From: Rhodothermaceae bacterium
GTDB taxonomy: Bacteria > Bacteroidota > Rhodothermia > Balneolales > Cyclonatronaceae
NCBI GenBank assembly: GCA_020201275.1
Contig: JAIVHB010000142.1
Span: 1-51,909, forward strand
Reading direction: 5' to 3'
Length of the DNA stretch: 51,909 nucleotides
The notes below the pieces were generated by a model. It saw only the letters and a list, made by a program, of their open reading frames with translations, was not told the origin of the DNA and did no database searches. A program made the translations under genes and the position numbers. The number at the start of each line of letters is the position of its first letter. Position 1 is the stretch's first letter. This document shows positions 16,133 through 31,612 of this stretch, piece by piece.

Positions 16133-19100
16133 ATGAAAGTTCTCACCTGCAGCTTCCTGCTGATCCTTCTGCTAACCGGTCCTGCCTGCTATGGACAGGA
16201 CGGATCGCATGCATCCAATACGCTCTCAGGGCAACAGATCAAGAAAAGGGCCGATTCCAACGTAATTTTCGTAAAGGATGTACTCTTTGAAATTGAGAAG
16301 GAACTGAATGTCTTCTTTAATTTTGACGACGATCTGCTGAGTGATAAGATATTGACAAAAAAACCCGAAATCCCCGTGCTGTCGGGCGAGCTAGACACAT
16401 TTCTTTCCAATATGCTCAAAGGGTTGGACATGGTTCACGAGAAGCTGGATGATCATACGATCATTATCAAAAGAGCACCGAAAAAAAGCGGAAGTTTTTT
16501 CATTCCGCTTCCACTCCGGCAGAATCGTACCGTAACGGGAACTGTGACCGGAACCCGCGGAGAAACCCTTACGGGTGTGAATATTATTCTGAAAGGAACA
16601 CAGATCGGCACCACCACAGATATTGCAGGCGAATACAGTATCACCTTTCCTGATTCGCTGAACATCCTGGTATTCTCTTATCTCGGTTTTATGCAGAGGG
16701 AAGAAGTAATAGGAGACCGGGAAGTAATTGATGTGGTTCTTGAAGAATTCGCCTATCTGGGCGAAGAGCTCGTGGTTATCGGATATGGTACGCAACAGCG
16801 GCGCGATCTTACCGGCTCGATCGGAAGCGTTTCCGGCGCCCAGGTCAGCGACCAGCCCTATCTCGGCGTCGACCAGGCCCTTCAGGGTCAGCTTGCAGGC
16901 GTGCAGGTCAGCCCGGCCTCCGGAAAGCCCGGTGATGCAGTATCTGTGCGAATCCGTGGCACGGGAACGGTAAATCAAAGCGATCCGCTGTATGTGATCG
17001 ACGGTTTTCCCGTTAGCGGGGGCATCAGCGCAATCAACATGGACGATATCGAATCGATCGACGTGCTGAAAGACGCTTCGGCGACGGCGATCTACGGTGC
17101 CCGGGGTGCCAACGGGGTCGTGATTATCACCACCAAACGCGGCCATCACGGCGGAATTGAAGTGGATGTGAATATGTACGCGGGTTTTCAGGAGCTGACG
17201 AATCCGATCCGGATGCTGAACGCCTCGCAGTATGCTGAAATGAACAATGAAGCCCGCCTGAATGCCGGTGAGGCCATCAACCCCGCCTTCTCCGACCCGT
17301 CGGCCCTGGCCGACTCGGCGAACTGGGTAAATGAAATCTTCCGCACCGCCCTGATGCATAATTATTCGGTGTCGGTCCGCGGCGGTTCCGAAACCCTCAG
17401 ATACAACCTGAGCGCCGGTTTTCTCAGGCAGGATGGTGTGATCATCAGTTCGGGCTTCGAACGCAAGTCGTTCCGGCTGAACCTCGATTCCGACATCTCA
17501 CCCATTGTGGATATCGGCAACAGTTTTACCTACAGCCTTATAAATTTTCAGAATGAGGGGAATGGTGGTCTGGTTCGGTCGGCCATGAATTCCCTGCCCA
17601 CCCAGCCGGTACGGCGTAACGGAAGTTTTTCCGGCCCACAGGGCATCGCCGAGTATGATGGGGATGTAACCAATCCGGTCGGCCTGGCTTCGATCAACGA
17701 ACATTCCGACGACAAGCACCGCATACTGAATAATTTCTTCCTGCGTGCTCAGCCCCTTGGCGGCCTCACCCTGCGATCGGAATTCGGCGTTGATTTCGCT
17801 TTCGAGCGTAGCAGGAACTGGTCTCCGCGTTACCAGTGGGGGATCAAGGAGGTTCCGCACTCTCATCTGTTCGAAGGTTCGTTTCAGCGAACCGACTGGC
17901 TCTGGGATAACACAGTGACCTATGAAATCGATTTTGAACACCAGTCTCTCACCCTTCTGGGCGGTATGAGCGCCCAAAAGTCCACGAACAATTTTACAGG
18001 GGCTTCAGGTCAGGAATTTGTTAGTGAAGTAGCCAACCAGCTCGATAACATACAGAGTAATGAAAGTGTGTTCGGATCGACATCCGAATTCGGCCTGCTC
18101 TCCTATATGGGCCGGATTTTGTACAACTACCAGTCGCGGTATCTTGTAACGGCAACCGCCCGCTACGACGGCTCCTCCCGTTTCGGTGCCAACCACAGGT
18201 TTGGTTTGTTCCCGTCGGCATCGGTGGCCTGGAGGGTCTCGAGCGAGCCGTTCATGCGTCGTTTCACCTTTCTGGATGACCTCAAAATTCGCGCGGGCTA
18301 TGGCTACACCGGCAATCAGGAAGCGATTCCGGCATTCGGGTACATCGCGCTTCTCGACCCGACATTCCGGTATACCTTCGGCAACAGTACCGTTCCGGCA
18401 GTGGTACCGCAGAATTTCCCGAACGACGATCTGAGATGGGAGAAAGTAATCCAGTCGAACGTCGGTGTAGATATGATGCTGTTCGACGGAAAAATTGACC
18501 TCACCCTGGAGTATTACATCCGCGACACCGAAGATATGCTTCTCATTTCCCCCATCCCGATTACTTCGGGGTTCTTTGATTTCGAGCGGCCGATTCTGAA
18601 CGTGGGATCGGTACGGAACGAAGGATTTGAGATCGCCCTGCGCACAGCGAATCAACTGGGCGTGCTGCAATGGAATTCCGCGTTGAATGTTTCCTTTAAT
18701 GATAATGTGGTTCTCCGTTTGAGCGGTGTGGATGGCAATGATCCCATTCCCGGCGGCGAGATAACCTTTAACAAGTTTGCCTCCCGCCTTGAAGTCGGAC
18801 ATCCAATTGGTGCTTTTTACGGATATGTGACCGATGGCATCTTTCAAAACCGGGACGAGATTGCAGCCCATGCCATTCAAACTGCCGGTACAAATCCTGC
18901 AAACAGTACGGCTCCGGGCGATATCCGGTTCAAAGATCTGAACGGTGATGGCATAATCAGCGACGATGACCGGACATTCCTGGGTGATCCCAACCCGGAC
19001 TTTTACTTCGGTTGGACCAACACCTTTTACTACAAGGCATTTGATCTGACCATTTTCATGCAGGGCACCTATGGCAACAGCATCTTCAATGCCAACAAGG

Positions 19101-19474
19101 TATTCAGCGAGGCAATGGCAACCGCCCAGAACCAGACCATCAACACCCTGAACAGATGGAACGGCGAGGGTACAAGCAGCAGCGTGCCGCGTGCCACCAC
19201 AACCGATCCCAACGATAACACAAGAGTCTCTGACCGGTATATCGAAGACGGCTCCTACCTCAGGATCAAGAATGTTACCCTCGGTTACGATCTGCCTGTG
19301 TCGGTTCTTGAAGCCATTGGATTTCGCCGGCTCAGGGTGTATGCCTCATTCCAGAATCTGTACACGTTTACCAGATACACAGGATTTGACCCTGAAGTGG
19401 GTGTTTTCGGGATCGATAACAGCGTATATCCGCCCGGCAGAACCATCATGGCGGGATTAAACATAGGACTTTAA
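16133..19474 (+). CDS. SusC/RagA family TonB-dependent outer-membrane transporter
   Basis: An 1113-aa TonB-dependent transporter for large ligands. In order: signal peptide (to about residue 22); STN signalling domain (about 45-110; ADSNVIFVKDVLFEIEKELNVFFNFDD); carboxypeptidase-like regulatory domain (about 130-210; TVTGTVTGTRGETLTGVNI); plug (about 220-335; DPLYVIDGFPVSGG, DIESIDVLKDASATAIYGARGANGVVIITTK, the SusC signature); and a beta-barrel ending in Leu. The STN domain and adjacent FecR indicate ligand-dependent regulation. It begins 11 nt after fecR and ends 7 nt before susD. Full length and undamaged. Substrate is presumably an alpha-gluco-oligosaccharide, judged only from the neighbouring enzymes. 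Confidence 0.95.
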   Translation: MKVLTCSFLLILLLTGPACYGQDGSHASNTLSGQQIKKRADSNVIFVKDVLFEIEKELNVFFNFDDDLLSDKILTKKPEIPVLSGELDTFLSNMLKGLDMVHEKLDDHTIIIKRAPKKSGSFFIPLPLRQNRTVTGTVTGTRGETLTGVNIILKGTQIGTTTDIAGEYSITFPDSLNILVFSYLGFMQREEVIGDREVIDVVLEEFAYLGEELVVIGYGTQQRRDLTGSIGSVSGAQVSDQPYLGVDQALQGQLAGVQVSPASGKPGDAVSVRIRGTGTVNQSDPLYVIDGFPVSGGISAINMDDIESIDVLKDASATAIYGARGANGVVIITTKRGHHGGIEVDVNMYAGFQELTNPIRMLNASQYAEMNNEARLNAGEAINPAFSDPSALADSANWVNEIFRTALMHNYSVSVRGGSETLRYNLSAGFLRQDGVIISSGFERKSFRLNLDSDISPIVDIGNSFTYSLINFQNEGNGGLVRSAMNSLPTQPVRRNGSFSGPQGIAEYDGDVTNPVGLASINEHSDDKHRILNNFFLRAQPLGGLTLRSEFGVDFAFERSRNWSPRYQWGIKEVPHSHLFEGSFQRTDWLWDNTVTYEIDFEHQSLTLLGGMSAQKSTNNFTGASGQEFVSEVANQLDNIQSNESVFGSTSEFGLLSYMGRILYNYQSRYLVTATARYDGSSRFGANHRFGLFPSASVAWRVSSEPFMRRFTFLDDLKIRAGYGYTGNQEAIPAFGYIALLDPTFRYTFGNSTVPAVVPQNFPNDDLRWEKVIQSNVGVDMMLFDGKIDLTLEYYIRDTEDMLLISPIPITSGFFDFERPILNVGSVRNEGFEIALRTANQLGVLQWNSALNVSFNDNVVLRLSGVDGNDPIPGGEITFNKFASRLEVGHPIGAFYGYVTDGIFQNRDEIAAHAIQTAGTNPANSTAPGDIRFKDLNGDGIISDDDRTFLGDPNPDFYFGWTNTFYYKAFDLTIFMQGTYGNSIFNANKVFSEAMATAQNQTINTLNRWNGEGTSSSVPRATTTDPNDNTRVSDRYIEDGSYLRIKNVTLGYDLPVSVLEAIGFRRLRVYASFQNLYTFTRYTGFDPEVGVFGIDNSVYPPGRTIMAGLNIGL

Positions 19475-19481
19475 CTGAACG

Positions 19482-20957
19482 ATGAGAATCATGAGAAAAT
19501 CACTACGAATTCCTGTTCTGGCCGCCCTGGTTTTTACACTGGGCTGCGAGGGTATCCTCGATACCGTACCGTCGAATTCCATCAACAGCGAAAATTTTTT
19601 CAGTTCACCTGAAGATGCTGTCGCTGCGCTAAACGGGGCATACCAGCCGCTCCAGTGGCCTAATCTGTATAACCTGCGGATCTGGGCGCTCGATATGGTA
19701 GCAGGTAACGCAGAAGTTGGTGCAGGCGGCGGTGATGACGGGCTCGAAACCAAACAGCTTGCCTCCTTTCTGATCCAGCCTGACAATCCCGGCGTCGAGG
19801 ATATGTGGAGGGGGATCTGGCCCGGCATTGCCAATTCCAACTTCGTGATCAACCGCGTATCGGGAATGAATAACCTGGATTCACAGCTCAAAAGCCGGAT
19901 TATCGCCGAAGCCCGGTTCCTCAGGGCGCTGTACTACTTCAACGGGGTACGCCTTTTTGGCGGGCTTCCTGTAATACTCTCATCATCCGACGATCAGATG
20001 GTGAAAAGGGAAAGTGTTGCAAAAACCTATGAGCAGATTATTGCCGACCTGCTGGCAGCCGAAAAAGATCTGCCTGCAACCTACAACGGCTCGCAATTCA
20101 ATGAGGTCGGCCGTGCCACAAAAGGTGCCGCTCTGGGCCTGCTTGCCAAAGTGTACCTCACAACCGGAGAATATGAACTGGCTGAAGCAGCGGCCCGGCA
20201 GGTAACAACATTGAACTATGACCTGCATACTGTTTTTACCCGCAATTTTGATCCGTTTTTCAATAATGGAATCGAGTCCGTTTTTGAGGTTCAATACAGT
20301 TCGGGCAGCGCGTTTAATCAATTCGAGAAAAAACACCAGGGATCGTGGGTTACCGAATTTACAAATCCCAGGGGAAGCGGACTGAGCCCTTGGGGCGGTT
20401 TCGGCTGGGGACATGTTACTCAGGAGTTTGTCAATTCATGGGAGCCGGGAGACCGCAGACTGAATCATACCGTATGGCAAAGTGGGGATTCTTATGGAGC
20501 ATATACCTATAATCCCGGTTTCTCGTCCACCGGGTACAATATCAAAAAATGGGTTCGGGGCAGCAGTTCCGTCACCGGTATGGACAGCAACCTCAATTTC
20601 CCGGTGCTCCGTTATGCCGACGTCCTGCTGATGCTCGCCGAAGCGCTGAATGAGCAGGGGAAAACAGTGGAAGCGGAGCCGCATATCAACCAGGTTAGAA
20701 GCAGGGCCGGTCTCCCGGCTTTGTCGGGCCTTACACAGGTGCAGATGAGAGAACGCATTCTTCAGGAGCGGCGCGCCGAGTTCGCCTTCGAGGGCCAGTG
20801 GTGGTTCGACCTGATGAGGGCCGGCCCGGATTACGCCGAAAGCTATTTCCACGGCCTCGGCAAAGATAATTTCGACAAGACGAAACATATTCTGTTCCCG
20901 ATTCCGCGCACCGACATGGACCTTAACAGAAATATGGTACAAAATCCTAATTACTGA
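19482..20957 (+). CDS. SusD/RagB family nutrient-binding outer-membrane lipoprotein
   Basis: A 491-aa surface lipoprotein that forms the lid of the SusC transporter. The signal ends in lipobox TLGC (Cys near residue 22). The mature start GILDTVPSNSINSENFFSSPEDAVAALNGAYQPL is typical of the family. The TPR-like helical core includes AEARFLRALYYFNGVRLFGGLPVI and GAALGLLAKVYLTTGEYELAEAAA. The C-terminal SusD signature is VLRYADVLLMLAEALNEQG, then QERRAEFAFEGQWWFDLMR. The stop overlaps the next ATG by one base (TGATG), so susD and the first GH27-type gene are translationally coupled. Confidence 0.95.
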   Translation: MRIMRKSLRIPVLAALVFTLGCEGILDTVPSNSINSENFFSSPEDAVAALNGAYQPLQWPNLYNLRIWALDMVAGNAEVGAGGGDDGLETKQLASFLIQPDNPGVEDMWRGIWPGIANSNFVINRVSGMNNLDSQLKSRIIAEARFLRALYYFNGVRLFGGLPVILSSSDDQMVKRESVAKTYEQIIADLLAAEKDLPATYNGSQFNEVGRATKGAALGLLAKVYLTTGEYELAEAAARQVTTLNYDLHTVFTRNFDPFFNNGIESVFEVQYSSGSAFNQFEKKHQGSWVTEFTNPRGSGLSPWGGFGWGHVTQEFVNSWEPGDRRLNHTVWQSGDSYGAYTYNPGFSSTGYNIKKWVRGSSSVTGMDSNLNFPVLRYADVLLMLAEALNEQGKTVEAEPHINQVRSRAGLPALSGLTQVQMRERILQERRAEFAFEGQWWFDLMRAGPDYAESYFHGLGKDNFDKTKHILFPIPRTDMDLNRNMVQNPNY

Positions 20958-22348
20958 TGAAGCCACATCCGTTGTCCCTGCCCCTGTTCCTGATCCTTCT
21001 TCTGGCGCCATCTCACATTACCGGGTGCAGCGACATACGCGACCCGCAGGGAAACCTGCGGGCACAGCCGGGGGGGGCACCGGAACTTTCGGATACTATC
21101 GCGGGCCCGCAGGCAAATCCGTATAAAGCCCCGCTGTACTGGAGCGTGTACGAAAATCACATCCTGCAGCCCGATGATCACCTGAATTACATTACTGAAG
21201 AAGACTGGTCCGATAATATCGACTGGGTGGAGGAAAATCTGCTGCCCTACGGCTACGACATGGTCGCCATCGACGGCTGGGGCGATACATCCCAATTCAA
21301 CGAGTACGGCTACCGCACAACCCATTCCCGGTACTGGGAGCACGATTATGCCTGGTGGGCAGAAAATCTTCAGAGCCGCGGCATGAACCTTGGCATGTAC
21401 TTCAACCCAACCGGCCGGCCGCTGTGCGACATCATCGATCCCGATGAGGATGCCCTCGCTTTTAAATGGGTTCAGGTGAATAACCCTGGCGCCGAAGAAT
21501 ATGTGAAAGGCTACATTCAGTTTTATGCCGATATGGGCATCAAATACCTGAGAATCGATTTTCTCTCCTGGTTTGAGGACGGTTTTGACAAGGGTCAGGG
21601 CAGGATCGGCCCCGATAGGCCTTCAGCCGATTACGAAACCGCCCTCCACTGGATGAAGGAAGCCGCAGACGAAAACGGGCAATTCCTGAGCCTGGTGATG
21701 CCGCACCTGAAGAATGAGGCTGAAATGGAGCTCCGTTACGGCCATATGATCCGCATCAATGAGGATGTGGGCACCGGCGGATGGGAGCGGTTCAGTAATT
21801 ACGAGCGGGGAGTCCGGCGCGACTGGTGGTCGCAGTGGGCCAACACATTCGATGGCTATATCTATTGGTCACATCTTTCAGGCCGCAACCGGATGATACT
21901 TGACGGCGATTTTATACGCATCAACACCATGGCGAACGACGACGAAAAACGCACAGTAATCTCTCTTCACCTGCTTGCCGGCGGTCCGCTGTCGCCTGCC
22001 GATCAGTATAACACCATCGGCGACGACTTATGGTTCTACCAGAACCGCGAAATGCTGGCCCTGAATGAAGACGGATTTGTGGGGAAACCGCTGACAAATG
22101 ATCCGACAATGGAAGACAGCCAGATATGGACGGGGCAGATGTCGAACGGGGACTGGATCATTGGCCTGTTCAACCGTGAGGATGATGCCCGTACCCGCAG
22201 CATTGATTTCAGGAAACACCTGGGGCTTGACGGTAAATCAGCAGTCCGCGACCTCTGGGAGCACGAAGACCTGGGTGAAATGGACTCCTATTCCGAGGAA
22301 ATCCCACCGCATGGCGTGAGGGTACTGAGGATAGCATCAGGCAACTGA
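20957..22348 (+). CDS. GH27-type (clan GH-D) glycoside hydrolase, lipoprotein; isomaltodextranase-like
   Basis: A 463-aa lipoprotein (lipobox ITGC, Cys24) with a clan-D TIM barrel: YGYDMVAIDGWGD early, a nucleophile-like Asp201 in KYLRIDFLSWFEDG, an acid/base candidate Asp270 in RINEDVGTGGW, then LAGGPLSPADQ and WFYQNREMLALN before a beta-sandwich. GH27 covers alpha-galactosidases and the actinobacterial isomaltodextranase. The spacing of 69 between the two Asp residues resembles what I recall for isomaltodextranase (D198/D266), which would fit an alpha-glucan PUL. An alpha-galactosidase remains possible. It is co-translated with susD and has a paralogue immediately downstream. Confidence 0.72.
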   Translation: MKPHPLSLPLFLILLLAPSHITGCSDIRDPQGNLRAQPGGAPELSDTIAGPQANPYKAPLYWSVYENHILQPDDHLNYITEEDWSDNIDWVEENLLPYGYDMVAIDGWGDTSQFNEYGYRTTHSRYWEHDYAWWAENLQSRGMNLGMYFNPTGRPLCDIIDPDEDALAFKWVQVNNPGAEEYVKGYIQFYADMGIKYLRIDFLSWFEDGFDKGQGRIGPDRPSADYETALHWMKEAADENGQFLSLVMPHLKNEAEMELRYGHMIRINEDVGTGGWERFSNYERGVRRDWWSQWANTFDGYIYWSHLSGRNRMILDGDFIRINTMANDDEKRTVISLHLLAGGPLSPADQYNTIGDDLWFYQNREMLALNEDGFVGKPLTNDPTMEDSQIWTGQMSNGDWIIGLFNREDDARTRSIDFRKHLGLDGKSAVRDLWEHEDLGEMDSYSEEIPPHGVRVLRIASGN

Positions 22349-22421
22349 ACCGGAATACCAATACAACCACTCAGTAATGATATCAAAAATACCTTCTTGC
22401 TCTGAACCGGAAATCCATCTG

Positions 22422-23801
22422 ATGAAACCGAAAAAAGTGTCCGTTCTGTTGAATACGGGAATCGCCGCACTTGTACTTTTGCTTACCCTGATTCAGGGAG
22501 TTGACGCTCAGAATCCTTTCAAAGCCCCGCTGTACTGGAGTGTGTACGAAAACCATATCCTGCAATCCGACAACTCCTCCAACTATATCACCGAGGCCGA
22601 CTTGTCTGCCAATATCGACTGGGTGGAAGAGAACCTGCTTCCCTACGGTTATGATATGATTGCCATCGATGGCTGGGGCGACGTTTCGCAATTTAATGAG
22701 AACGGGTACCGCACATCCCATTCGGTGCACTGGCAGAACGATTTCGCATGGTGGGCGCAGGAGCTGCAAGGGCGCGGCATGAACCTTGGCATGTACGATA
22801 ATCCGCTCTGGGTGAACATGTCGGCGGTAAATGCCGGGCACAAGATCGCCGGCACCGATATTCCGCTCGAGAACATCATCAACCGTAATGAGCAGAGCCT
22901 GTGGTTTACCTGGGTGCAGGTCGACCGCGAAGGCGCTGAGGAATACGTGAGGGGGAATATCAGGCACTGGGCAAGTATGGGCATCCGGTTTCTGAATGCC
23001 GATTTCCTGTCCTGGTTTGAGGATGGTTACGATAAAAACCTTGGTGTTGTCGGCCCGCAGAATCGCCCTCATGAGCATTACGTGACAGCGATGAGATGGA
23101 TGAAGGAGGAGGCGGATGCGAATAATATGCTTTTCAAAGCCGTGATGCCCCACCTTAAAAACGAAGCTGAAGTGGAGCTGCAGTACAGCCACATGATCCG
23201 TATCAATGAGGATGTGGGTTCCGGCGGGTGGTACAGGTTCAGTCAGGACGACCGCTCGAACCGGCGCCCGTGGTGGTCGCAGTGGGCCAATCCTTTCGAC
23301 GGATATACATACTGGTCGTACCTGACCGGAAGGAACGGGCTCATACTGTGCGGCGACTTCATCCGGCTGAACACCTTTGAAAGCGTTGAGGAGAAAAAAT
23401 CGGTCATTTCCCTTCACCTGATGGCAGGTGGCCCCCTCGGTGTTTCCGATCAGTACAATACGATCGGCAACGATTTGTGGCTATATCAGAATGAGGAGAT
23501 GCTGGCCCTGAATGCCGACGGGTTTGTGGGAAAACCCCTCACCAACGATCCGACCGATGCGGCCAGCCAGATCTGGACAGGCCTGATGTCGGATGGTGAC
23601 ACAATTGTGGCGCTTTTTAACCGCGAAAGCTCGCCGAGAACAAGAACCATCGATTTCAGCCAACATCTGGGCATCGAAGGTCAGGCAACGGTTCGTGATT
23701 TGTGGCAGCATTCCTACATTGGTACGATGGATTCCTATTCCGTGGTTGTTCCGCCCCGCGGGGTAGTGGTCCTCAGTCATCGGCGCAGTCGGTTACAATA
23801 A
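22422..23801 (+). CDS. Second GH27-type hydrolase, catalytic module (frameshifted from its C-terminal half)
   Basis: Paralogue of the preceding gene, sharing KAPLYWSVYENHILQ and most motifs (Asp194 in FLNADFLSWFEDG, Asp264 in RINEDVGSGGW). The ATG at 22422 gives a Sec signal ending GVDAQ, so this copy is exported as a soluble protein rather than a lipoprotein; an ATG at 22377 would add 15 unlikely residues. The catalytic region and beta-sandwich look complete up to VVVPPRGVVVLS, where the frame runs into a TAA seven codons later. The continuing modules sit in another frame from about 23780, so the present product would lack its T9SS sorting signal. Compared with the first copy it has an insert near residues 125-160 (WVNMSAVNAGHKI). 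Confidence 0.75.
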   Translation: MKPKKVSVLLNTGIAALVLLLTLIQGVDAQNPFKAPLYWSVYENHILQSDNSSNYITEADLSANIDWVEENLLPYGYDMIAIDGWGDVSQFNENGYRTSHSVHWQNDFAWWAQELQGRGMNLGMYDNPLWVNMSAVNAGHKIAGTDIPLENIINRNEQSLWFTWVQVDREGAEEYVRGNIRHWASMGIRFLNADFLSWFEDGYDKNLGVVGPQNRPHEHYVTAMRWMKEEADANNMLFKAVMPHLKNEAEVELQYSHMIRINEDVGSGGWYRFSQDDRSNRRPWWSQWANPFDGYTYWSYLTGRNGLILCGDFIRLNTFESVEEKKSVISLHLMAGGPLGVSDQYNTIGNDLWLYQNEEMLALNADGFVGKPLTNDPTDAASQIWTGLMSDGDTIVALFNRESSPRTRTIDFSQHLGIEGQATVRDLWQHSYIGTMDSYSVVVPPRGVVVLSHRRSRLQ

Positions 23802-24847
23802 CGACTGCCACCGAAGATGCTGTAATCTACTACACTACCGACGGAACCGACCCGGATGCATCATCCGCAGCATATACCGGCCCGGTGGATGTAGCCGTTA
23901 GCATTACGCTCAAGGCAATTGCCATGAAATCCGGCCTGGAAAATTCGGATATCAATACTGCAGACTACGTGATTTCACCGCTCCCGCAGGGCTGGCAAAA
24001 CACGGATATCGGAAATGTCTCGCCAGCCGGTTCGGCGGCATGGTCCTCTGATACATTCACCCTCGAAGGTTCCGGTGCCGATATTGAAGGCACCGCCGAT
24101 GCGTTTCACTATGTCTATCAGTCCGTTGAGGGTGATGTTCTCCTCACTGCACGGCTCGAATCACTTGGCGACACCGACCCGTGGGCCAAGGCGGGCCTGA
24201 TGGTGCGGCAGACCCTCGAACCCGGCTCCGCGAATGTGATGATGGGCGTTACGCCGGGCAACGGGGCGATATTCCAGAACAGATCGTCTGCCGGCTCGGG
24301 CACCTTGGCCTCGGTCATGCCGGGTATCAGTATGCCTGTATGGCTGGCCATCCGGCGTGATGGAAATACATTCTCCGGTTTCGTTTCCCCCGACGGGGCG
24401 TCAGGCAGCTGGACTCAGGCCGGTTCTGATATCCAGGTCGGCATGGGGACGGAAGTGTACGTAGGCCTCGCTGTAACCTCACATAACAATGGCGTCCTCA
24501 CATCGGCCACTTTCAGTGATGTATCCACCGACAGAACCCTAACAGATATCATAGATGATGACCCCGAACGGCAATCGGTGAAGGAATTTGCATTGGCGCA
24601 AAACTATCCGAACCCGTTCAATCCCTCAACACTGATCAATTTCAGCCTGGAGACCTCATCCCACACAACCCTGATCGTCTACGATCAGCTCGGCCGAAGA
24701 GTGGCCACTCTCATCGACGGACATCTTACTGCCGGTGCCCATAGCAGTATTTTCGAGGCGGATACCTCCCTTGCCACAGCGCTCTATTTTTATGTACTCA
24801 CGTCCGGAAGCCGGCAAACGGTAAAGAAAATGCTGCTACTGAAATGA
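23780..24847 (+). pseudogene. Detached C-terminal half of the second GH27 protein: chitobiase-type, DUF1349-like and T9SS domains
   Basis: This frame has no plausible start of its own; its upstream part (from 23702) overlaps the GH27 end in a wrong frame. The real content begins near SAQSVTITTATEDAVIYYTTDGTDP, a chitobiase/beta-hexosaminidase C-terminal-type module. A DUF1349-like concanavalin module follows (GWQNTDIGNVSPAGSAAW, DPWAKAGLMVRQTLEPGSANV, VYVGLAVTSHNNG), then a T9SS sorting domain (NYPNPFNPSTLINF, YDQLGRRVATL, TVKKMLLLK). The offset equals loss of 3n+1 bases near 23770-23800. A proline-rich opening expected before SAQSVT is missing, so this may be a small deletion rather than one lost base. 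Confidence 0.75.
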
Positions 24848-24893: not shown

Positions 24894-27197
24894 TTACTTG
24901 TACGTAACAGTCCACTGAACAGGGAAAAAATTGCCGGCATCGTCATAGCTGTAACCAACAATCTGACCCTTGTTATTGATCGCCCGGGCATAACTGTTGC
25001 CGCCGTAAGTAGGCAGCTCCACCATCCCGGTTTTCTCGTCCCAGTAAAAAGCCCGGTGTTTGTTATCCCCGATATCGCTGTAACCCACAACCTGCCCCTG
25101 ATCGTTGATGTCCCAGGCCGTTGCCCATTGACCACCCAGGTTGCCCAATAGTTGAACACCACCCTGTTCATCCCAGATAAAGGCTTCTCCCTGCCATGTA
25201 GTACTCTGGGTAGTAGACAAGAGCAGGTTCATTTCAGACTGATCCCACACAGTCGTATTGCGGCCGTTATTTTCCGCATATTTTTCAGGCATCATTTTAC
25301 TCACCCAGGGAAACGCGTGTGATCGGAATGTTGAATTACGCAGCATTTCGAGAACATGGCCAGTATCATATACACCCCTGGAATGGGTGAGGCTCATAAT
25401 CTTCCTTGCGTTGTTTCTCGATTTGTCAGATATATTTCCCTGGCTGGCTAATATTGTGCTTGTGGTTTGTACGTCAGCCCGACCCGCTACCTGCCGGTTA
25501 TTGTTAATAGCATAAGCATCGATATAGATGTTTAACGGTATTATGATCTCTTCTCCGTCAATAAATGAACCGCCGGCAAAGGTTCCGGTAACAGTGCCAT
25601 TATCATTTATGCCCCATGCGGTACTGTAACCTATCCCTATTAAACTTGCATTTTGACCCGTATTCCATGTAAAACCAAACCAGTCATAGTCGTACACAGG
25701 ACCCTCATCCTCATCCTCGAACATGAATTCTTCCCATTCGAGTTCTCCTGCCACTTTACCTGAATTGTTAATATCGTATGCATTTATGTTGATATTATCT
25801 TTATCAGGTGCGCAGCAATACGTGATTTCCGTGAGACCGATGGTTTTGTGCCATAAATAGTTCCTGTGAACCACCTGGCCATTGTTGTTCATTGCAAAAC
25901 CTGAAATCGGCATCGTTATAATTGTTCGGGTTTCACTGTTCCAGTAGGAACCTCCGCCAATAATATGGCCGTGATCATTGATATCAACAGCTGCGGTCAG
26001 GCCAAACCGGCTTAAGTCATTCATTTCAAATGCAAGTTCACCAGTTCCCGGATGGTTAACATTCTCATACATATATAGTTCACCGGCATGGGCAGCTATA
26101 AAAATATTCCCGTCGCAATTAAGCTCAGACAGATCAACCGTGAAGGATTGTGAATTTTGCGGATCACCGTCATAGGTGTGAGGAAACCGTCCCGGTGCCA
26201 CATTTCCGGAATTTCCCGCCCGTGGAAAGTCATCAAGTGAACAACCGGCCCAAAGATGGTAATCTCCGAGCAGATATTCCGGAAAGGCACGAAAGGTAAT
26301 TTTCAGGCTGCTTCCGCTTTTGGATAGTTCCATACTGCCGATGGTGGTGCCAACCTGATCCGCGGGCATTGTCCCGTTGTCGTTGCCGCCGCCGGCTATC
26401 AGTTCCGTGGATGCGCTGAATGACCCGGAGTCAAATTCATAGATCCATCCCCACTGGCCTTTTCCCTGGCCCGTAACACCCAGCTGATCCATGAGAGCGC
26501 GGTTTCTGAAACTGTGCTGACCATATGCCCAGACCGACTCACCAACTTCGATGATGAGTGTCTGTGTGTTTGAGGGAGTTTCTGCAACTACGGCATACCT
26601 GGTTGCAGAAGTGTACGTAAAGGAGTCAACATTGCTGTTCACGTGCATCACGATCTGTTCGGCTTTCCTTCTGTCAAAATCCGGTTTGCCATCCCTAACC
26701 ATGTCGGATGGCAGCTGTTCGGCCTTAATTTTATTCAGGTTGAATTCAGGATAGTGCAGCAGTGACCAGATAGCTACCTGAATCTCCTTGTAGGTCAGAT
26801 CCTGGTCCTGCGCCATCAGGGCCCCCTTTATATTCAGCAGATAATTGACCGGTTTAAGACTTTTGTCACCATAGGATGAATGCAGCCTGATGCCATCATG
26901 AACACCAGTGCTGATAGGGGTTCTCCAGTCGATACACCAGGCTTTGGCCAAACCGGGCAGGATGTGGTCATTTGGGTCAATGTTGCTGATCTCAAGCCGG
27001 AAGTAACTGTCGGTACCCTTGGTAAGTGTGATGGTTGAATTTTCTGCACCATCAATAAGTTTGACAAAAGGTACGCCCTGAACGGAATCCTGCAGGCTTA
27101 CCGGCTGATAGTTGTCGCAGCTGGTTATGGTCAGGAAAAGTCCTGCAATGAGGGCGCACATGATGAAGACACAATGCCTTTTATCTGATATTGTCAT
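24894..27197 (-). CDS. Lipoprotein with thioester-domain-like N-terminus and HAF repeats
   Basis: From ATG 27197 (767 aa) the signal ends in TITSC, lipidated Cys27. Residues about 45-190 hold AWCIDW (Cys88) and, 52 residues later, EIQVAIW (Gln140, Trp144). These match the thioester-domain motifs xC and FQxxFW (F hydrophobic), where Cys and Gln form an internal thioester. A middle beta-rich region of unclear type follows (about 190-375). The last 390 residues are HAF-type repeats such as ATAWDINDQGQVVGYSDIG and YARAINNKGQIVGYSYDD. HAF repeats occur in secreted bacterial proteins of unknown role. A covalent surface adhesin is possible but unproven. The gene ends 46 nt from the convergent GH27 fragment. 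Confidence 0.72.
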   Translation of the reverse strand: MTISDKRHCVFIMCALIAGLFLTITSCDNYQPVSLQDSVQGVPFVKLIDGAENSTITLTKGTDSYFRLEISNIDPNDHILPGLAKAWCIDWRTPISTGVHDGIRLHSSYGDKSLKPVNYLLNIKGALMAQDQDLTYKEIQVAIWSLLHYPEFNLNKIKAEQLPSDMVRDGKPDFDRRKAEQIVMHVNSNVDSFTYTSATRYAVVAETPSNTQTLIIEVGESVWAYGQHSFRNRALMDQLGVTGQGKGQWGWIYEFDSGSFSASTELIAGGGNDNGTMPADQVGTTIGSMELSKSGSSLKITFRAFPEYLLGDYHLWAGCSLDDFPRAGNSGNVAPGRFPHTYDGDPQNSQSFTVDLSELNCDGNIFIAAHAGELYMYENVNHPGTGELAFEMNDLSRFGLTAAVDINDHGHIIGGGSYWNSETRTIITMPISGFAMNNNGQVVHRNYLWHKTIGLTEITYCCAPDKDNININAYDINNSGKVAGELEWEEFMFEDEDEGPVYDYDWFGFTWNTGQNASLIGIGYSTAWGINDNGTVTGTFAGGSFIDGEEIIIPLNIYIDAYAINNNRQVAGRADVQTTSTILASQGNISDKSRNNARKIMSLTHSRGVYDTGHVLEMLRNSTFRSHAFPWVSKMMPEKYAENNGRNTTVWDQSEMNLLLSTTQSTTWQGEAFIWDEQGGVQLLGNLGGQWATAWDINDQGQVVGYSDIGDNKHRAFYWDEKTGMVELPTYGGNSYARAINNKGQIVGYSYDDAGNFFPVQWTVTYK

Positions 27198-27662
27198 CAG
27201 AATCGATCCGGTTGTGTTACTCATTGGTGCCCTGGCTTTCTCATTATATCTGATGATAGTAAGTGTAAGGGTTCAGCCTGAAATATGAGGCCCGCTTGTC
27301 CATTACAGCAATTCGCCTAACTCATTATTTTACATAAACTCAAAAAGTTGGTTTATGTTGTAATGATATATTGTATAGTCAGTCCTTCGCGGGTTATTAG
27401 CAAGTTAGTCTTTTTTAATATTGATAGCCCCGCAAAACGGCAAAGCTCGTGAATTCCATTACATAGACATAATCCGCTTCCACCTCCCTGCCTTTCGCCG
27501 ACACCGGCTCACCTTCACCGGTGTCATTGATATGGTTGCTATTATTATGCTTAAAAGCATACGAAATTATGAACATAGCAGGTAATTTAAATACTAAATT
27601 AACAGAGGTTCTTCAAAGGGCCTAAATACTAAGATAGTATCACAAATTTTATTTTCATTTTT
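27198..27662. other. AT-rich intergenic region upstream of two divergent genes
   Basis: About 465 nt without a supported gene between the divergent HAF lipoprotein and glycosyltransferase genes. It is visibly AT-richer than its surroundings and should hold both promoters. The only structure I see is the hairpin at 27500-27525. Confidence 0.5.
27500..27525. repeat. Isolated hairpin in promoter region
   Basis: GACACCGG and CCGGTGTC form an 8-bp perfect stem around a 10-nt loop. It is a GC-rich island in AT-rich DNA, with no T-run. It could be an operator or a remnant repeat. Confidence 0.45.
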
Positions 27663-28928
27663 ATGAAAGTACTCGTGTTGATCGAGAAGATATACAGATC
27701 CAACGGTGGTGCATCCACATCACTGGATTTTGCTGAAACCATTAACAGCCTGGGTGATGAAGGCATATTGTGTATCGGTTCAGGAAGTGTTATAAAGATG
27801 AAAATCCAACATGATTTGCATCTCAAACAGGATTATGGTACAAAGGTGCCCTTAAAGAATATCTGCCCCATACCCGGATCCTACCCCATCAGAAAAAGAA
27901 TTGCAGATGTAAGCGCCCACGAATGGTCGTTCAGATCGATCAAGTCTGCCGCATCCTCTCTATCGGTACTGTTTGAGAAAAATGAGAAACACTTCGCTGA
28001 ATTATTGTCAGGTGCCGACCTGATAATCGATGCCTGCATGCTTCCGATGGATACGTTTTATAAGATCAAACGGCACACTTCCGCGCCGATCATCTATAAT
28101 CACAACGGCTCCCCCGATGCTGTAGACAGCTACTGGATAAGTGATTACCATCTGACAGAGCCTGAGATGCAAAGCAGTAACAAGTACAGCATATTCTGCA
28201 GCCGGTATAACGGAATTCTGTTTCAGGCCAATGACCAGGCCGCTGAATGTGTTAGAAGGGGAGCAATGCCGGAAAACAATGTGTACGTGGTGCCACCCTC
28301 ATGTCTTGAAAAGGAAGTTCTGGCCGCGCGGTTGCTCGACAGCCCCTATAAAATAGACCGCCGTTCGCTGGTGCATGTTGGTTCGATTATACCCAGAAAA
28401 GCCCAGCATCTTGCCATCGAGGCTTTCCATGGGATATCGGCTCAGTTTCCGGATGTTGACCTGCATTTCGTGGGCGGCAGATTGAACAATGACTATGCCG
28501 CCGGTCTGTTCAAACTGGTAAAAGAGTTGAATCTGGAGGAAAGGGTATACTTTCATGGTCACAGGCCCGATTATCTGCGCTTTATGGCCCATGCAGAAAT
28601 TCTGATTCAGAGCTCCAAACAGGAGGGGGTATCCAGAATTCTGCGTGAAACCATGCTGATGAAAATCCCAATTGTCAGTTTTGATATTTCCGGCACGTCT
28701 TCAACATTGGAGTCAGGAAAGGAAGCCCTTCTCGTTGAACCTGAAAATGTGCAGGCTATGGCGGAAGCTATTACCAGGCTACTCACAGACAAACATCTGG
28801 CAGAATCGCTGGCCGGGGCCGCTTTTCAAAAGTATCTGTTGAAGCACTCATGGCCGGTCTATGCCAATAACATAAAAATGATGATCGGCCATTTTACCGG
28901 ATCCGGCCTGGAATCAGCTACAGTCTGA
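27663..28928 (+). CDS. Glycosyltransferase family 4 (GT-B fold)
   Basis: A cytoplasmic glycosyltransferase of 421 aa that would move a sugar from a nucleotide donor to a glycan or lipid. The N-terminal domain starts MKVLVLIEKIYRSNGGAS, with the Gly-rich loop for the acceptor side. The C-terminal donor domain shows LVHVGSIIPRKAQHLAIEAF, LHFVGG, RVYFHGHRPDYLRFMAHAEILIQSSKQEGVSRILRETMLMKIPIVSFD with the E-x7-E motif, and ALLVEPENVQAMAEAI. It has no sugar-gene neighbours, so its pathway cannot be told. AT-richer DNA upstream hints at acquired sequence. A weak 7-bp inverted repeat (28951-28973) follows the stop. Confidence 0.87.
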   Translation: MKVLVLIEKIYRSNGGASTSLDFAETINSLGDEGILCIGSGSVIKMKIQHDLHLKQDYGTKVPLKNICPIPGSYPIRKRIADVSAHEWSFRSIKSAASSLSVLFEKNEKHFAELLSGADLIIDACMLPMDTFYKIKRHTSAPIIYNHNGSPDAVDSYWISDYHLTEPEMQSSNKYSIFCSRYNGILFQANDQAAECVRRGAMPENNVYVVPPSCLEKEVLAARLLDSPYKIDRRSLVHVGSIIPRKAQHLAIEAFHGISAQFPDVDLHFVGGRLNNDYAAGLFKLVKELNLEERVYFHGHRPDYLRFMAHAEILIQSSKQEGVSRILRETMLMKIPIVSFDISGTSSTLESGKEALLVEPENVQAMAEAITRLLTDKHLAESLAGAAFQKYLLKHSWPVYANNIKMMIGHFTGSGLESATV

Positions 28929-29025
28929 TGATGAACTTCCGGTTTAATCCTTTAGCTTTTCTATTTAGCTAAATCCCCCGCTATAACTGCCTTAAGATAA
29001 ATATAATAAGGACTTTAATAGATAG

Positions 29026-29098
29026 AGCCGAAGAGCGGACTCGAACCGCCGACCTGCTCATTACGAGTGAGCTGCTCTACCAGCTGAGCTACTTCGGC
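29026..29098 (-). tRNA. tRNA-Thr (anticodon CGT)
   Basis: Full 73-nt cloverleaf on the minus strand: acceptor GCCGAAG/CTTCGGC, D-stem GCTC/GAGC, anticodon stem GCTCA/TGAGC with loop CTCGTAA (CGT reads ACG), T-arm GGCGG-TTCGAGT-CCGCT with one G-U pair, discriminator T. CCA is not encoded. Confidence 0.95.
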
Positions 29099-29521
29099 TT
29101 GATCATGATCACATTGCAAATCAGTATGATCAATATTCATTCAGTACTTCAAACGTCGGTCGGAAACGATACCGTACACGATTTGGACGGTTTTGCGGCC
29201 CGGGCTGTTTCCGGGGTCATAAGTTACGCAATCACTGAATTCGGAAAAATACATTTCACAAAATGCATCTGTCATCAAATTAGAACATGGAAACCCGTAT
29301 ATCGCCGGATAATATTCAGGCAGATGCTGTACCGGGTTTTTCCCGTAATTTCTGCTCTCTGATCAACGCCGGGCTATCGATTGAATTAACATTGAAATGA
29401 CTATTGGTTCTGAGTAAGTTAGTCAGGAATGATGTTATTCATTTCACGCATACTTTACACCCCATGATATGTGTAACTTGCTGTCTGGTCAAACATTTTG
29501 AGATTATTTATCAGGAGCCAT
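29099..29521. other. Intergenic region upstream of the RCC1-repeat gene
   Basis: About 420 nt after the tRNA. An 87-codon open frame exists (29099-29362), but its protein has no recognisable features and it starts right at the tRNA edge, so I do not call it. The RCC1 gene's promoter should be near the right end. Confidence 0.4.
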
Positions 29522-31612
29522 ATGAAAAGTAAAATCGGGAAAGTTTCATGTAAGCCAGTTCCAATTGCCCTGCTCATAATCATAGCTGTTACATCCATTT
29601 CTGTGTTCCCGGGTTTTGCACAGGATACCACCGCGTTGGCACTGTCAGGCCCCGGATTTGACAATGAACTAACAAGTAGTGACGGGAATATGGTAACCTG
29701 GGGCTGGAATAATTTCGGCCAGCGAACACTCCCGGAAGGATTGAATGAAGTGACGGCCATAGCAGCAGGTTCTTTTCACAGCGTGGCTTTGCAAAGCGAC
29801 GGTTCTGTCATGCACTGGGGCGACTGGATGATGATCCCAAACGGTCTGGATAACCTGACCGATGTCAAAACCGGTTTCAGTCACAGTATTGGAATACGCA
29901 GTGACGGAACACTTGTGGCCTGGGGATCGAATCATACAGGCCAGCTTGATATTCCTGCGGGGCTGAATAATGTGGAAGCTTTAACTGCCGGGTCAGATCA
30001 TAACCTGGTGTTGCTCAATGACGGAACCATTGCCAGCTGGGGTGATAATTCGTACGGGCAATTGATGGTGCCTTATAACCTGACTAATGTAGCAGCAATT
30101 GCAGCAGGCGGATATCATAATCTGGCAGTGCTGGCAAACGGGTCTGTTGCCTCCTGGGGAGGCAATGATAATGGTGGCGTTATCGTAAACTATGGACAAA
30201 CAAACGTACCCGCCGGGCTAACCGGAGCGATAGCAGCAGGAGCCGGGACTTATCACTCTCTTGCAGTACTGGCAGACGGAACGGTTATAGCCTGGGGAGA
30301 TAACAGGTATGGACAGACAGATGTACCGGCTGGTCTTGCCGGGGTGGTTGCCGTTGACGGTGGGGAACGCCATAGCATCGCATTGAAAAGTGATGGTACG
30401 ATCGTAGCCTGGGGAAATAACAGTAACGGACAGACGAATGTAACGCAGGGCCTGACCAATGTGAAGGCAATTTCAGCTGGTCTGTTCCACAACCTAGCGC
30501 TTCAGAACAATGGGAACGTAGTAGCATGGGGCAGTAACAGCAATGAACAGATCGATGTACCGGAGTCACTTAATGGTTTGGTAGAGCTATCAGCCGGTTT
30601 CAGTTTTAATCTTGCCCTTCTGTCGAATGGCAGAATTAAATCCTGGGGCGACAGAACATGGGCATTAAATGATGTGACCAATGCCGTTTCGGTTGTAGCC
30701 AGCCATGATCATGCCCTGGCCCTTCTTGATGACGGAACGGTGGTTGCCCATAATACATCCATACCCCAGGCATTAACCAATATATCCGCTATATCTTCAA
30801 AAGGCGCCCACAGCATGGCCCTGAGGGATGATGGAACGGTTGTGGTTTGGAACAGCCTGGGATTTTTAACTGTGCCTGATGGATTGACGGATGTTATTGC
30901 CATCGCGGCAGGCATCAATCATTGCCTGGCTCTGCGGAGTGATGGCACCGTTGCAGGATGGAGCTATGGTTCCGCTGGCGGAGCATCGTATGTACCCGCA
31001 AATTTGAACAACGTGGTGGCAATCGATGCCGGTGAAACGTTTAGTCTTGCGCTGAAAAGCGATGGTACGGTAGCAGCGTGGGGCAGTTCGCAATACGGTC
31101 TTAACAATGTGCCAGCCGGGCTCAGTGATGTAGTCGATATTGCTGCAGGCCGGCGCCACGCACTGGTATTACACAACGACGGAACAGTGTTCGGCTGGGG
31201 TAGCAATGAATACGGTCAGGTCAGTATTCCTGCCGGCCTGACCGGTGCTGACAGGGTTGTTGCAGGCAGTTTTCACAGTTTTGCAATTAAAGGTGTTGAA
31301 AGAAGGATTCAGGTTTCAATACCCGACGAGCAGAACCGGCAGGCACCATCCGGCATTCGCCTGCATCAGAATTACCCGAATCCGTTTAATCCAAATACTC
31401 AAATCACCTACGAACTGAACCAGGCATCCCATGTGCTCCTCGAGGTATTCGATCTCACCGGCCGGCATGTGGCAACCCTCCAGAATGGCATGCAAATGGC
31501 GGGAAGCCATACGATCACATTTGATGCATCCGCATTGTCGAGCGGTATTTACATCTACAGAGTGTCAACATCCGGAACTGTACATTCACGCAAAATGATG
31601 CTGATAAAGTAA
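29522..31612 (+). CDS. Secreted RCC1-repeat beta-propeller protein with T9SS sorting domain
   Basis: ATG 29522 follows AGGAG (29513-29517). The 696-aa protein has a signal peptide ending VFPGFAQ, then about a dozen RCC1-type repeats of some 45-50 residues. A typical unit runs IAAGxxHxLALxxDGTVxAWGxNxxGQxxVPAGLxNV. In bacteria these build one or two seven-bladed propellers. Residues about 615-696 are a T9SS sorting domain (NYPNPFNPNTQITY, FDLTGRHVATL, SGIYIYRVSTSG). It should be exported to the surface or medium; ligand unknown. It stands alone and converges on the small DUF gene at 31673. Near 30640-30780 two blades are degenerate (VVAHNTSIPQALTN lacks the AWG core). Confidence 0.87.
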   Translation: MKSKIGKVSCKPVPIALLIIIAVTSISVFPGFAQDTTALALSGPGFDNELTSSDGNMVTWGWNNFGQRTLPEGLNEVTAIAAGSFHSVALQSDGSVMHWGDWMMIPNGLDNLTDVKTGFSHSIGIRSDGTLVAWGSNHTGQLDIPAGLNNVEALTAGSDHNLVLLNDGTIASWGDNSYGQLMVPYNLTNVAAIAAGGYHNLAVLANGSVASWGGNDNGGVIVNYGQTNVPAGLTGAIAAGAGTYHSLAVLADGTVIAWGDNRYGQTDVPAGLAGVVAVDGGERHSIALKSDGTIVAWGNNSNGQTNVTQGLTNVKAISAGLFHNLALQNNGNVVAWGSNSNEQIDVPESLNGLVELSAGFSFNLALLSNGRIKSWGDRTWALNDVTNAVSVVASHDHALALLDDGTVVAHNTSIPQALTNISAISSKGAHSMALRDDGTVVVWNSLGFLTVPDGLTDVIAIAAGINHCLALRSDGTVAGWSYGSAGGASYVPANLNNVVAIDAGETFSLALKSDGTVAAWGSSQYGLNNVPAGLSDVVDIAAGRRHALVLHNDGTVFGWGSNEYGQVSIPAGLTGADRVVAGSFHSFAIKGVERRIQVSIPDEQNRQAPSGIRLHQNYPNPFNPNTQITYELNQASHVLLEVFDLTGRHVATLQNGMQMAGSHTITFDASALSSGIYIYRVSTSGTVHSRKMMLIK

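Follow-up and report, generated by a model that had tools for sequence, protein, structure and literature searches.

A divergent thioester domain predicted in a family of lipoproteins from a Gram-negative bacterial order

Introduction

Thioester domains (TEDs) were defined as occurring exclusively in Gram-positive bacteria, mostly at the tips of wall-anchored stalks (Walden et al., 2015, PMC4450167). A gene on a contig from a Rhodothermaceae bacterium (GenBank JAIVHB010000142.1; the 51,909-bp stretch analyzed, referred to below as the window) carries motifs that a first-pass annotation had assigned to such a domain in a Gram-negative lipoprotein. This raises the questions of whether the domain is indeed of the TED type, which residues would form its bond, and to what the protein may become attached. 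Residue conservation, AlphaFold2 modeling with Foldseek searches, and profile comparison support a TED fold, and the gene belongs to an undescribed family of lipid-anchored minimal TEDs in a Gram-negative order, which is unseen by Pfam and linked to exopolysaccharide genes.

Gene and Domain Architecture

The open reading frame with a lipidation signal and thioester motifs was present as first annotated: the lipobox reads ITSC27, and reading back the DNA placed the codons of Cys27, Cys88, Gln140, and Trp144 where expected (Table 1). The frame is 776 aa long when counted from the ATG at 27224 and 767 aa from the ATG at 27197. The former is the more probable start: L002, the ortholog from the same genus (MNNAIGSILVARSDK), retains the upstream ATG and has no Met at the inner position, and AGGG stands upstream of ATG 27224. 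Residue numbers throughout count from ATG 27197, the start used in the first-pass annotation, and are higher by nine in the full form.

Table 1. Predicted features of the TED lipoprotein gene and its divergent neighbor in the window
Feature	Position	Strand	Basis
Gene for TED-WGW-HAF lipoprotein	24894..27224	-	Open reading frame and start choice (ortholog L002, AGGG)
Lipoprotein signal peptide with lipobox ITSC27 (Cys codon 27117-27119)	27117..27224	-	Cys27 in 44/44 relatives
Thioester-domain core, aa 45-220	26538..27065	-	AlphaFold2 topology, Foldseek to TED structures, hhalign
Predicted thioester Cys (Cys88 in WCI) at end of strand C	26934..26936	-	44/44; codon checked
Helix motif Q140-V-A-I-W144, TQxxPhiW equivalent, not bond partner	26766..26780	-	Gln140 and Trp144 44/44; helix a2
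Predicted thioester Gln (Gln212 in TQTLI), immediately ahead of strand Q	26562..26564	-	43/44; codon checked
"WGW" domain (aa 221-385), beta-rich, without a Pfam family	26043..26537	-	Common to relatives; high-confidence beta-strands in model
HAF-repeat region, aa 400-767	24897..26000	-	TIGR02913, DUF3466
Divergent family-1 glycosyltransferase, neighbor	27663..28928	+	PF00534 E 3.7e-27; absent in L075

With its signal peptide and lipobox Cys, the product is predicted to be a bacterial lipoprotein, probably of the outer membrane, and may be exposed at the surface. The lipobox Cys27 is found in all 44 non-redundant relatives, with S, A, G, N, or Q at position -1 and mostly D or E at +2, and the earlier observation that the domain sits behind a lipidation signal therefore holds for the whole set.

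The signal peptide is followed by a short linker, a TED of ~175 residues, a WGW domain of ~165 residues, and the HAF region. The first-pass annotation had described a TED fused to a long HAF array; the array is there, but the two are not joined directly, as the WGW domain intervenes. This domain is common to L002, L038, L036, L051, L053, and L035, and the copies in relatives have no Pfam match above cut-off. Its Foldseek matches to carbohydrate-binding modules (5fu3, prob 0.60, E 0.14) were too weak to use. The HAF region consists of seven IND-GQVVG-like units and a ~110-aa non-repeat insert, and is recognized as HAF repeats by TIGR02913 of NCBIfam (E 7.8e-20, 70.6 bits against a cut-off of 22.65). 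The protein thus resembles HAF-repeat proteins (TIGR02913/DUF3466) in its C-terminal half, although HAF repeats are missing from most TED relatives and are only one of several tails. Identity to the same-genus ortholog falls along the chain, from 85% in the TED to 77% in the WGW domain and 49% in the HAF region.

In some members the lipid-anchored TED stands bare, at roughly 215-255 residues (~225 aa), and these would form a convenient natural set for work on the thioester; other members carry WGW, HAF, an SdrD_B-like stretch (just under the Pfam cut-off), or a DxSGSM stretch as tails. Bare and tailed copies often occur in tandem. The tail of the TED lipoprotein in L043 contains DDSGSM, reminiscent of the metal site of vWA domains, with no vWA match in Pfam.

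Conserved Residues and the Predicted Thioester Bond

Relatives were collected from whole genomes of the window's own order. In the alignment of the 44 non-redundant sequences, only five positions are essentially invariant, namely Cys27, Cys88, Gln140, and Trp144 (each 44/44) and Gln212 (43/44), and few others come close. The sole exception at Gln212 reads AQDQ and is plausibly an alignment slip. When the WGW domain is included in a 35-row alignment, no columns are invariant other than those of Cys88, Gln140, Trp144, and Gln212. On these alignments, the conservation of the motifs is a selected pattern and not a chance match.

In solved TEDs, the bond is formed between the Cys of a [YFL]C-Phi-z motif on strand C and the Gln of a weak PhiQzPhiPhi motif on strand Q, and the Gln and Trp of a helical TQxxPhiW motif touch the Cys backbone without being essential (Walden et al., 2015, PMC4450167; Miller et al., 2018, PMC6194298). 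Each of these motifs has a counterpart in the family. The Cys stands at a strand end in all 44 relatives, mostly as WC followed by I, A, V, or L, so that the preceding Trp is a slight departure from [YFL]C-Phi-z. The helical Gln and Trp are likewise found in 44/44 on helix a2, with a hydrophobic residue in place of the Thr. At strand Q, the family reads TQTLI, VQTVF, GQTIM, and the like (Gln in 43/44), where T or G is common at the first position in place of a strictly hydrophobic residue. Cys-to-Gln spacing is 120-136 across the family (median 126), and the 124 residues between Cys88 and Gln212 compare with 129 for the Cys138-Gln267 pair of CpTIE (PMC4450167).

The first-pass reading of AWCID (Cys88) and IQVAIW (Gln140 and Trp144) as TED motifs is borne out, all three residues being invariant. 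It overlooked, however, the third and bond-forming motif, TQTLI, with a Gln212 conserved in 43/44 relatives, and accordingly named Cys88 and Gln140 as the bonded pair, whereas the bonding Gln in solved TEDs is that of strand Q, here Gln212. The distance between Cys88 and Gln140, which had been proposed as a structural check, therefore concerns the wrong pair. A Cys88-Gln140 bond would agree with the invariance of both residues, but the equivalent Gln in solved TEDs lies on helix a2, where it hydrogen-bonds the Cys backbone and is inessential (PMC4450167; PMC6194298), and the family also has a near-invariant strand Gln in Gln212. This pairing is highly improbable and was rejected on the published TED structures. 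As analyzed here, the TED identification is strengthened while the named bond shifts to a predicted Cys88-Gln212 thioester.

Two other roles for the conserved residues were ruled out. The mature TED has a single Cys in 33 of the 44 relatives, which leaves no disulfide within the domain, and it has no invariant His or acidic residue that could mark a metal site (Glu138 is found in 42/44).

Predicted Fold

AlphaFold2 models were obtained from 20 rows (pLDDT 78.7, pTM 0.74) and from 35 rows with the WGW domain (pLDDT 84.3, pTM 0.82, TED blocks mostly >90). The modeled order of four strands, three helices, and two strands is that of the TED head, A-B-C-D-a1-a2-a3-P-Q, in which Cys88 is found at the end of strand C, helix a2 carries Gln140 and Trp144, and Gln212 immediately precedes strand Q. 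With the first model, all of the top 11 Foldseek matches in the PDB were TEDs (Cpa 4c0z, prob 1.00; SfbI 5a0l, 0.98; CpTIE 5a0g, 0.80), and with the second, the top six were the Cpa TED. The structure prediction suggested by the first-pass annotation has thus returned TED topology, with solved TEDs as best PDB matches. The models therefore predict a TED fold, a beta-barrel of strands A-D, P, and Q with a three-helix bundle, and the superposition is modest, with TM-scores to TEDs of 0.38-0.48 at ~10% identity, under the usual line of 0.5.

Class-specific additions are not seen in the model. Strand D ends at model residue 80 and a1 begins at 88, leaving no class I helix a0, and a3 ends at 165 and strand P begins at 174, leaving no class II beta-sandwich of ~75 residues. 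Since neither insertion is seen, the modeled domain looks like a bare TED core.

Relation to Known Thioester Proteins

Searches of Pfam, NCBIfam, and PDB sequences did not place the domain in a known family. PF08341 gave no match in 20 family members at E <= 10, NCBIfam models left the TED region unrecognized even at E 10, and a PDB sequence search found no solved sequence relative of it. Because of the missing PF08341 match, the domain is classed as a divergent TED type by fold and motifs and not as a PF08341 member. When the 44-row family was compared by hhalign with 18 PF08341 sequences of the same phylum, the alignment was in register: the Cys columns coincided, as did those of the helical Gln and Trp (E 0.0016, score 28.9). 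None of 200 column shuffles reached this score (best 20.75), but the hhalign probability was only 16%, and the profile comparison therefore supports common descent with PF08341 TEDs without proving it alone.

The family shares with class I TEDs (Cpa, SfbI, CpTIE; PF08341) the strand and helix order, the C-T-Q order of motifs, a Cys-Gln spacing near that of CpTIE, the best PDB fold matches, and a linker of ~9 residues between a3 and strand P. It differs from them in its ~10% identity, the lack of a Pfam match, and the apparent absence of helix a0. Moreover, class I proteins have a C-terminal LPXTG anchor behind a stalk, whereas here a lipid anchor stands beside the TED in a Gram-negative host. 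With class II TEDs (BaTIE, SaTIE) and the PF08341 proteins of the same phylum, the core of the head domain aligns in register by hhalign. In class II TEDs, a3 and strand P are separated by a beta-sandwich of Ig-like type (PMC6194298), and in the same-phylum proteins an Ig-like stretch comes after the helices, whereas this family has none.

Of 198 genomes of the same phylum, 18 encode canonical PF08341 TEDs that score above the Pfam cut-off. These TEDs belong to other families and are mostly parts of large proteins (most open frames 1,000-2,300 aa). The first-pass remark that such anchoring proteins are rarely considered in this phylum fits the searchable papers but was overstated in view of these genomes. 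The same-phylum proteins L055-L071 are mostly large, with a canonical PF08341 TED followed by an Ig-like stretch and mostly a conserved IPQGTRY motif, and are possibly class II TEDs in Gram-negative bacteria. Bacterial alpha-2-macroglobulins are also thioester proteins of Gram-negative bacteria and are lipoproteins in some cases. Their fold differs from that of TEDs, and their Cys and Gln are close in sequence, in contrast to the 124 residues between the two here.

Distribution and Gene Neighborhoods

In a phylum-wide sample of 396 genomes, the 12 in which the family was seen all belong to the order of the window. Of 85 genomes and 29 genera in that order, 21 and 7, respectively, have the family, with one to six copies per family-bearing genome. 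A single-protein scan of genome contigs returned one relative, from the Balneolaceae MAG DLM2.Bin41, the nearest named record.

In several genera, TED genes have exopolysaccharide genes beside them. The gene next to the TED in L091 and L076 encodes a protein of the Wzc type, in which Pfam recognizes GNVR, AAA_31, and Wzz domains; L081 and L085 contain members of the same BLAST cluster, and a genome search placed a Wzz domain there too. An export role for the small gene beside the Wzc-type gene is only a guess, since its SLBB match is weak in L076 and it has no Pfam match in L091. Epimerases, EpsG, and glycosyltransferases stand alongside other TED genes.

Across 38 TED clusters in 16 genomes, a Wzz domain lay within 6 kb of five clusters (0.26 expected, p 6e-6) and within 15 kb of nine (0.64 expected, p 1e-8), and the closeness of TED and Wzz/Wzc genes within 6 kb was found in four genera (chance of at least four genera 2.5e-5), these p-values being too small because clusters were treated as independent although they come from related genomes, and because Wzz was the last of three markers examined, which calls for a correction, and some loci had been viewed beforehand. 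Among the matches listed, family-1 glycosyltransferases showed a modest enrichment, lying within 10 kb of at least 5 of the 38 clusters (1.2 expected, p 0.006). The polysaccharide export marker PF02563 showed no proximity to TED genes, and about half of the TED loci inspected had no exopolysaccharide genes nearby. The TED copy of the window is not adjacent to Wzc; its neighbor is the glycosyltransferase of Table 1, located 440 bp away on the opposite strand and missing from the same-genus contig L075.

An outer-membrane beta-barrel gene of one BLAST cluster (OMP_b-brl_2 in L093) is located 126-303 bp from the TED genes of L093, L094, L095, and L089. Its product is a possible partner of the TED protein, although four genomes are too few to build on.

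Proposed Function and Alternative Explanations

The protein is likely a covalent anchoring lipoprotein with a predicted Cys88-Gln212 thioester, for which we infer both the formation of the bond and its target. After export, it would be lipidated at Cys27 and passed to the outer membrane. On folding, Cys88 of strand C and Gln212 of strand Q would join as an internal thioester with loss of ammonia, as the fold and conservation suggest, and contacts from Gln140 and Trp144 of helix a2 would keep the Cys backbone in place, as they do in solved TEDs. By analogy with characterized TEDs, a nearby nucleophile (an amine or a glycan hydroxyl) would open the thioester and leave the lipoprotein covalently linked, with the WGW and HAF parts forming the variable, presented portion. 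Because the TED is conserved and stands beside the lipid anchor while the tails vary (85% identity in the TED, 49% in the HAF region), the most likely target is a partner that stays the same and lies near the membrane, which may be the cell's own exopolysaccharide or an envelope or matrix protein. The TED could instead face the periplasm and act on envelope proteins.

A sharper version of the anchoring explanation is that the thioester serves to tether exopolysaccharide made by the cell itself to its outer membrane. The TED would react with the chain exported by the adjacent Wzc-type system and be joined to one of its hydroxyls or amino sugars by an ester or amide. The Wzz/Wzc genes within 6 kb of TED genes in four genera, the Wzc-type neighbors in L091 and L076 with the members of their BLAST cluster in L081 and L085, and the epimerases, EpsG, and glycosyltransferases beside others argue for it, as do the conserved TED with variable tails and the ~225-aa TED-only lipoproteins, which have no stalk to reach past their own surface. 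Linkage, however, does not show chemistry, polysaccharide genes are missing from the vicinity of about half of the loci looked at, the window copy is beside a single glycosyltransferase that is absent from the same-genus contig, and SfbI, the best characterized TED, acts on a protein lysine (PMC4450167). This version is a tentative and somewhat unlikely one. The protein may otherwise be a classical adhesin, whose exposed TED bonds external targets such as other cells, mat matrix, or particles, with the HAF and WGW tails giving specificity. There is Gram-positive precedent in the binding of fibrinogen by the SfbI TED (PMC4450167), and the variable tails, including the SdrD_B-like stretch and the DxSGSM stretch resembling a vWA metal site, would suit such a role. 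The geometry is nevertheless inverted, in that the TED of Gram-positive proteins stands at the far tip of a stalk (PMC4450167), whereas the order from anchor to TED in this family is the reverse, with the TED directly after the lipid anchor and a short linker, and the bare-TED members have no stalk at all, which makes an adhesin possible if doubtful.

The domain might also be a TED-derived fold that has lost its thioester and keeps Cys and Gln for structure or non-covalent binding, as TM-scores only near 0.45 and the failure of HMMs to recognize it could suggest. The near-invariant residues are nonetheless exactly the two bond formers and the two lining the bond, the pattern expected if the bond is under selection, and a lost thioester is improbable. 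Returning to the anchoring lipoprotein, a more speculative and somewhat unlikely extension is that the family represents a third TED class without the class-defining indels, a lipoprotein module of a Gram-negative order that covalently ties either the exopolysaccharide of its own cell or a different polymer of the envelope to the outer membrane and is co-inherited with Wzc-type loci. A family of lipid-anchored minimal TEDs in a Gram-negative order, linked to exopolysaccharide genes, would itself extend covalent TED chemistry to Gram-negative envelopes, and it suggests a way in which part of the slime or matrix may stay attached to the cell.

Other Features of the Window

A tRNA-Thr(cgt) is close to the TED gene in both the window (27663-29098) and L075 (6937-7010). 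In the window, the glycosyltransferase gene separates the TED gene from the tRNA, on the far side of which an RCC1-repeat protein is encoded; L075 has neither, which suggests an insertion or loss beside tRNA-Thr. The RCC1-repeat protein (29498-31612, 704 aa) has a type IX secretion C-terminal tail. On the other side of the TED gene, glycosidase-like tandem paralogs (20957-23801) stand behind a SusC/SusD pair (16133-20957). The open reading frames at 22377-23801 and 23702-24847 overlap in different frames, the former encoding a Melibiase_C glycosidase and the latter a CHB_HEX_C/Fn3-associated/type IX sorting tail, and look like one protein split by a frameshift, either real or an assembly error.
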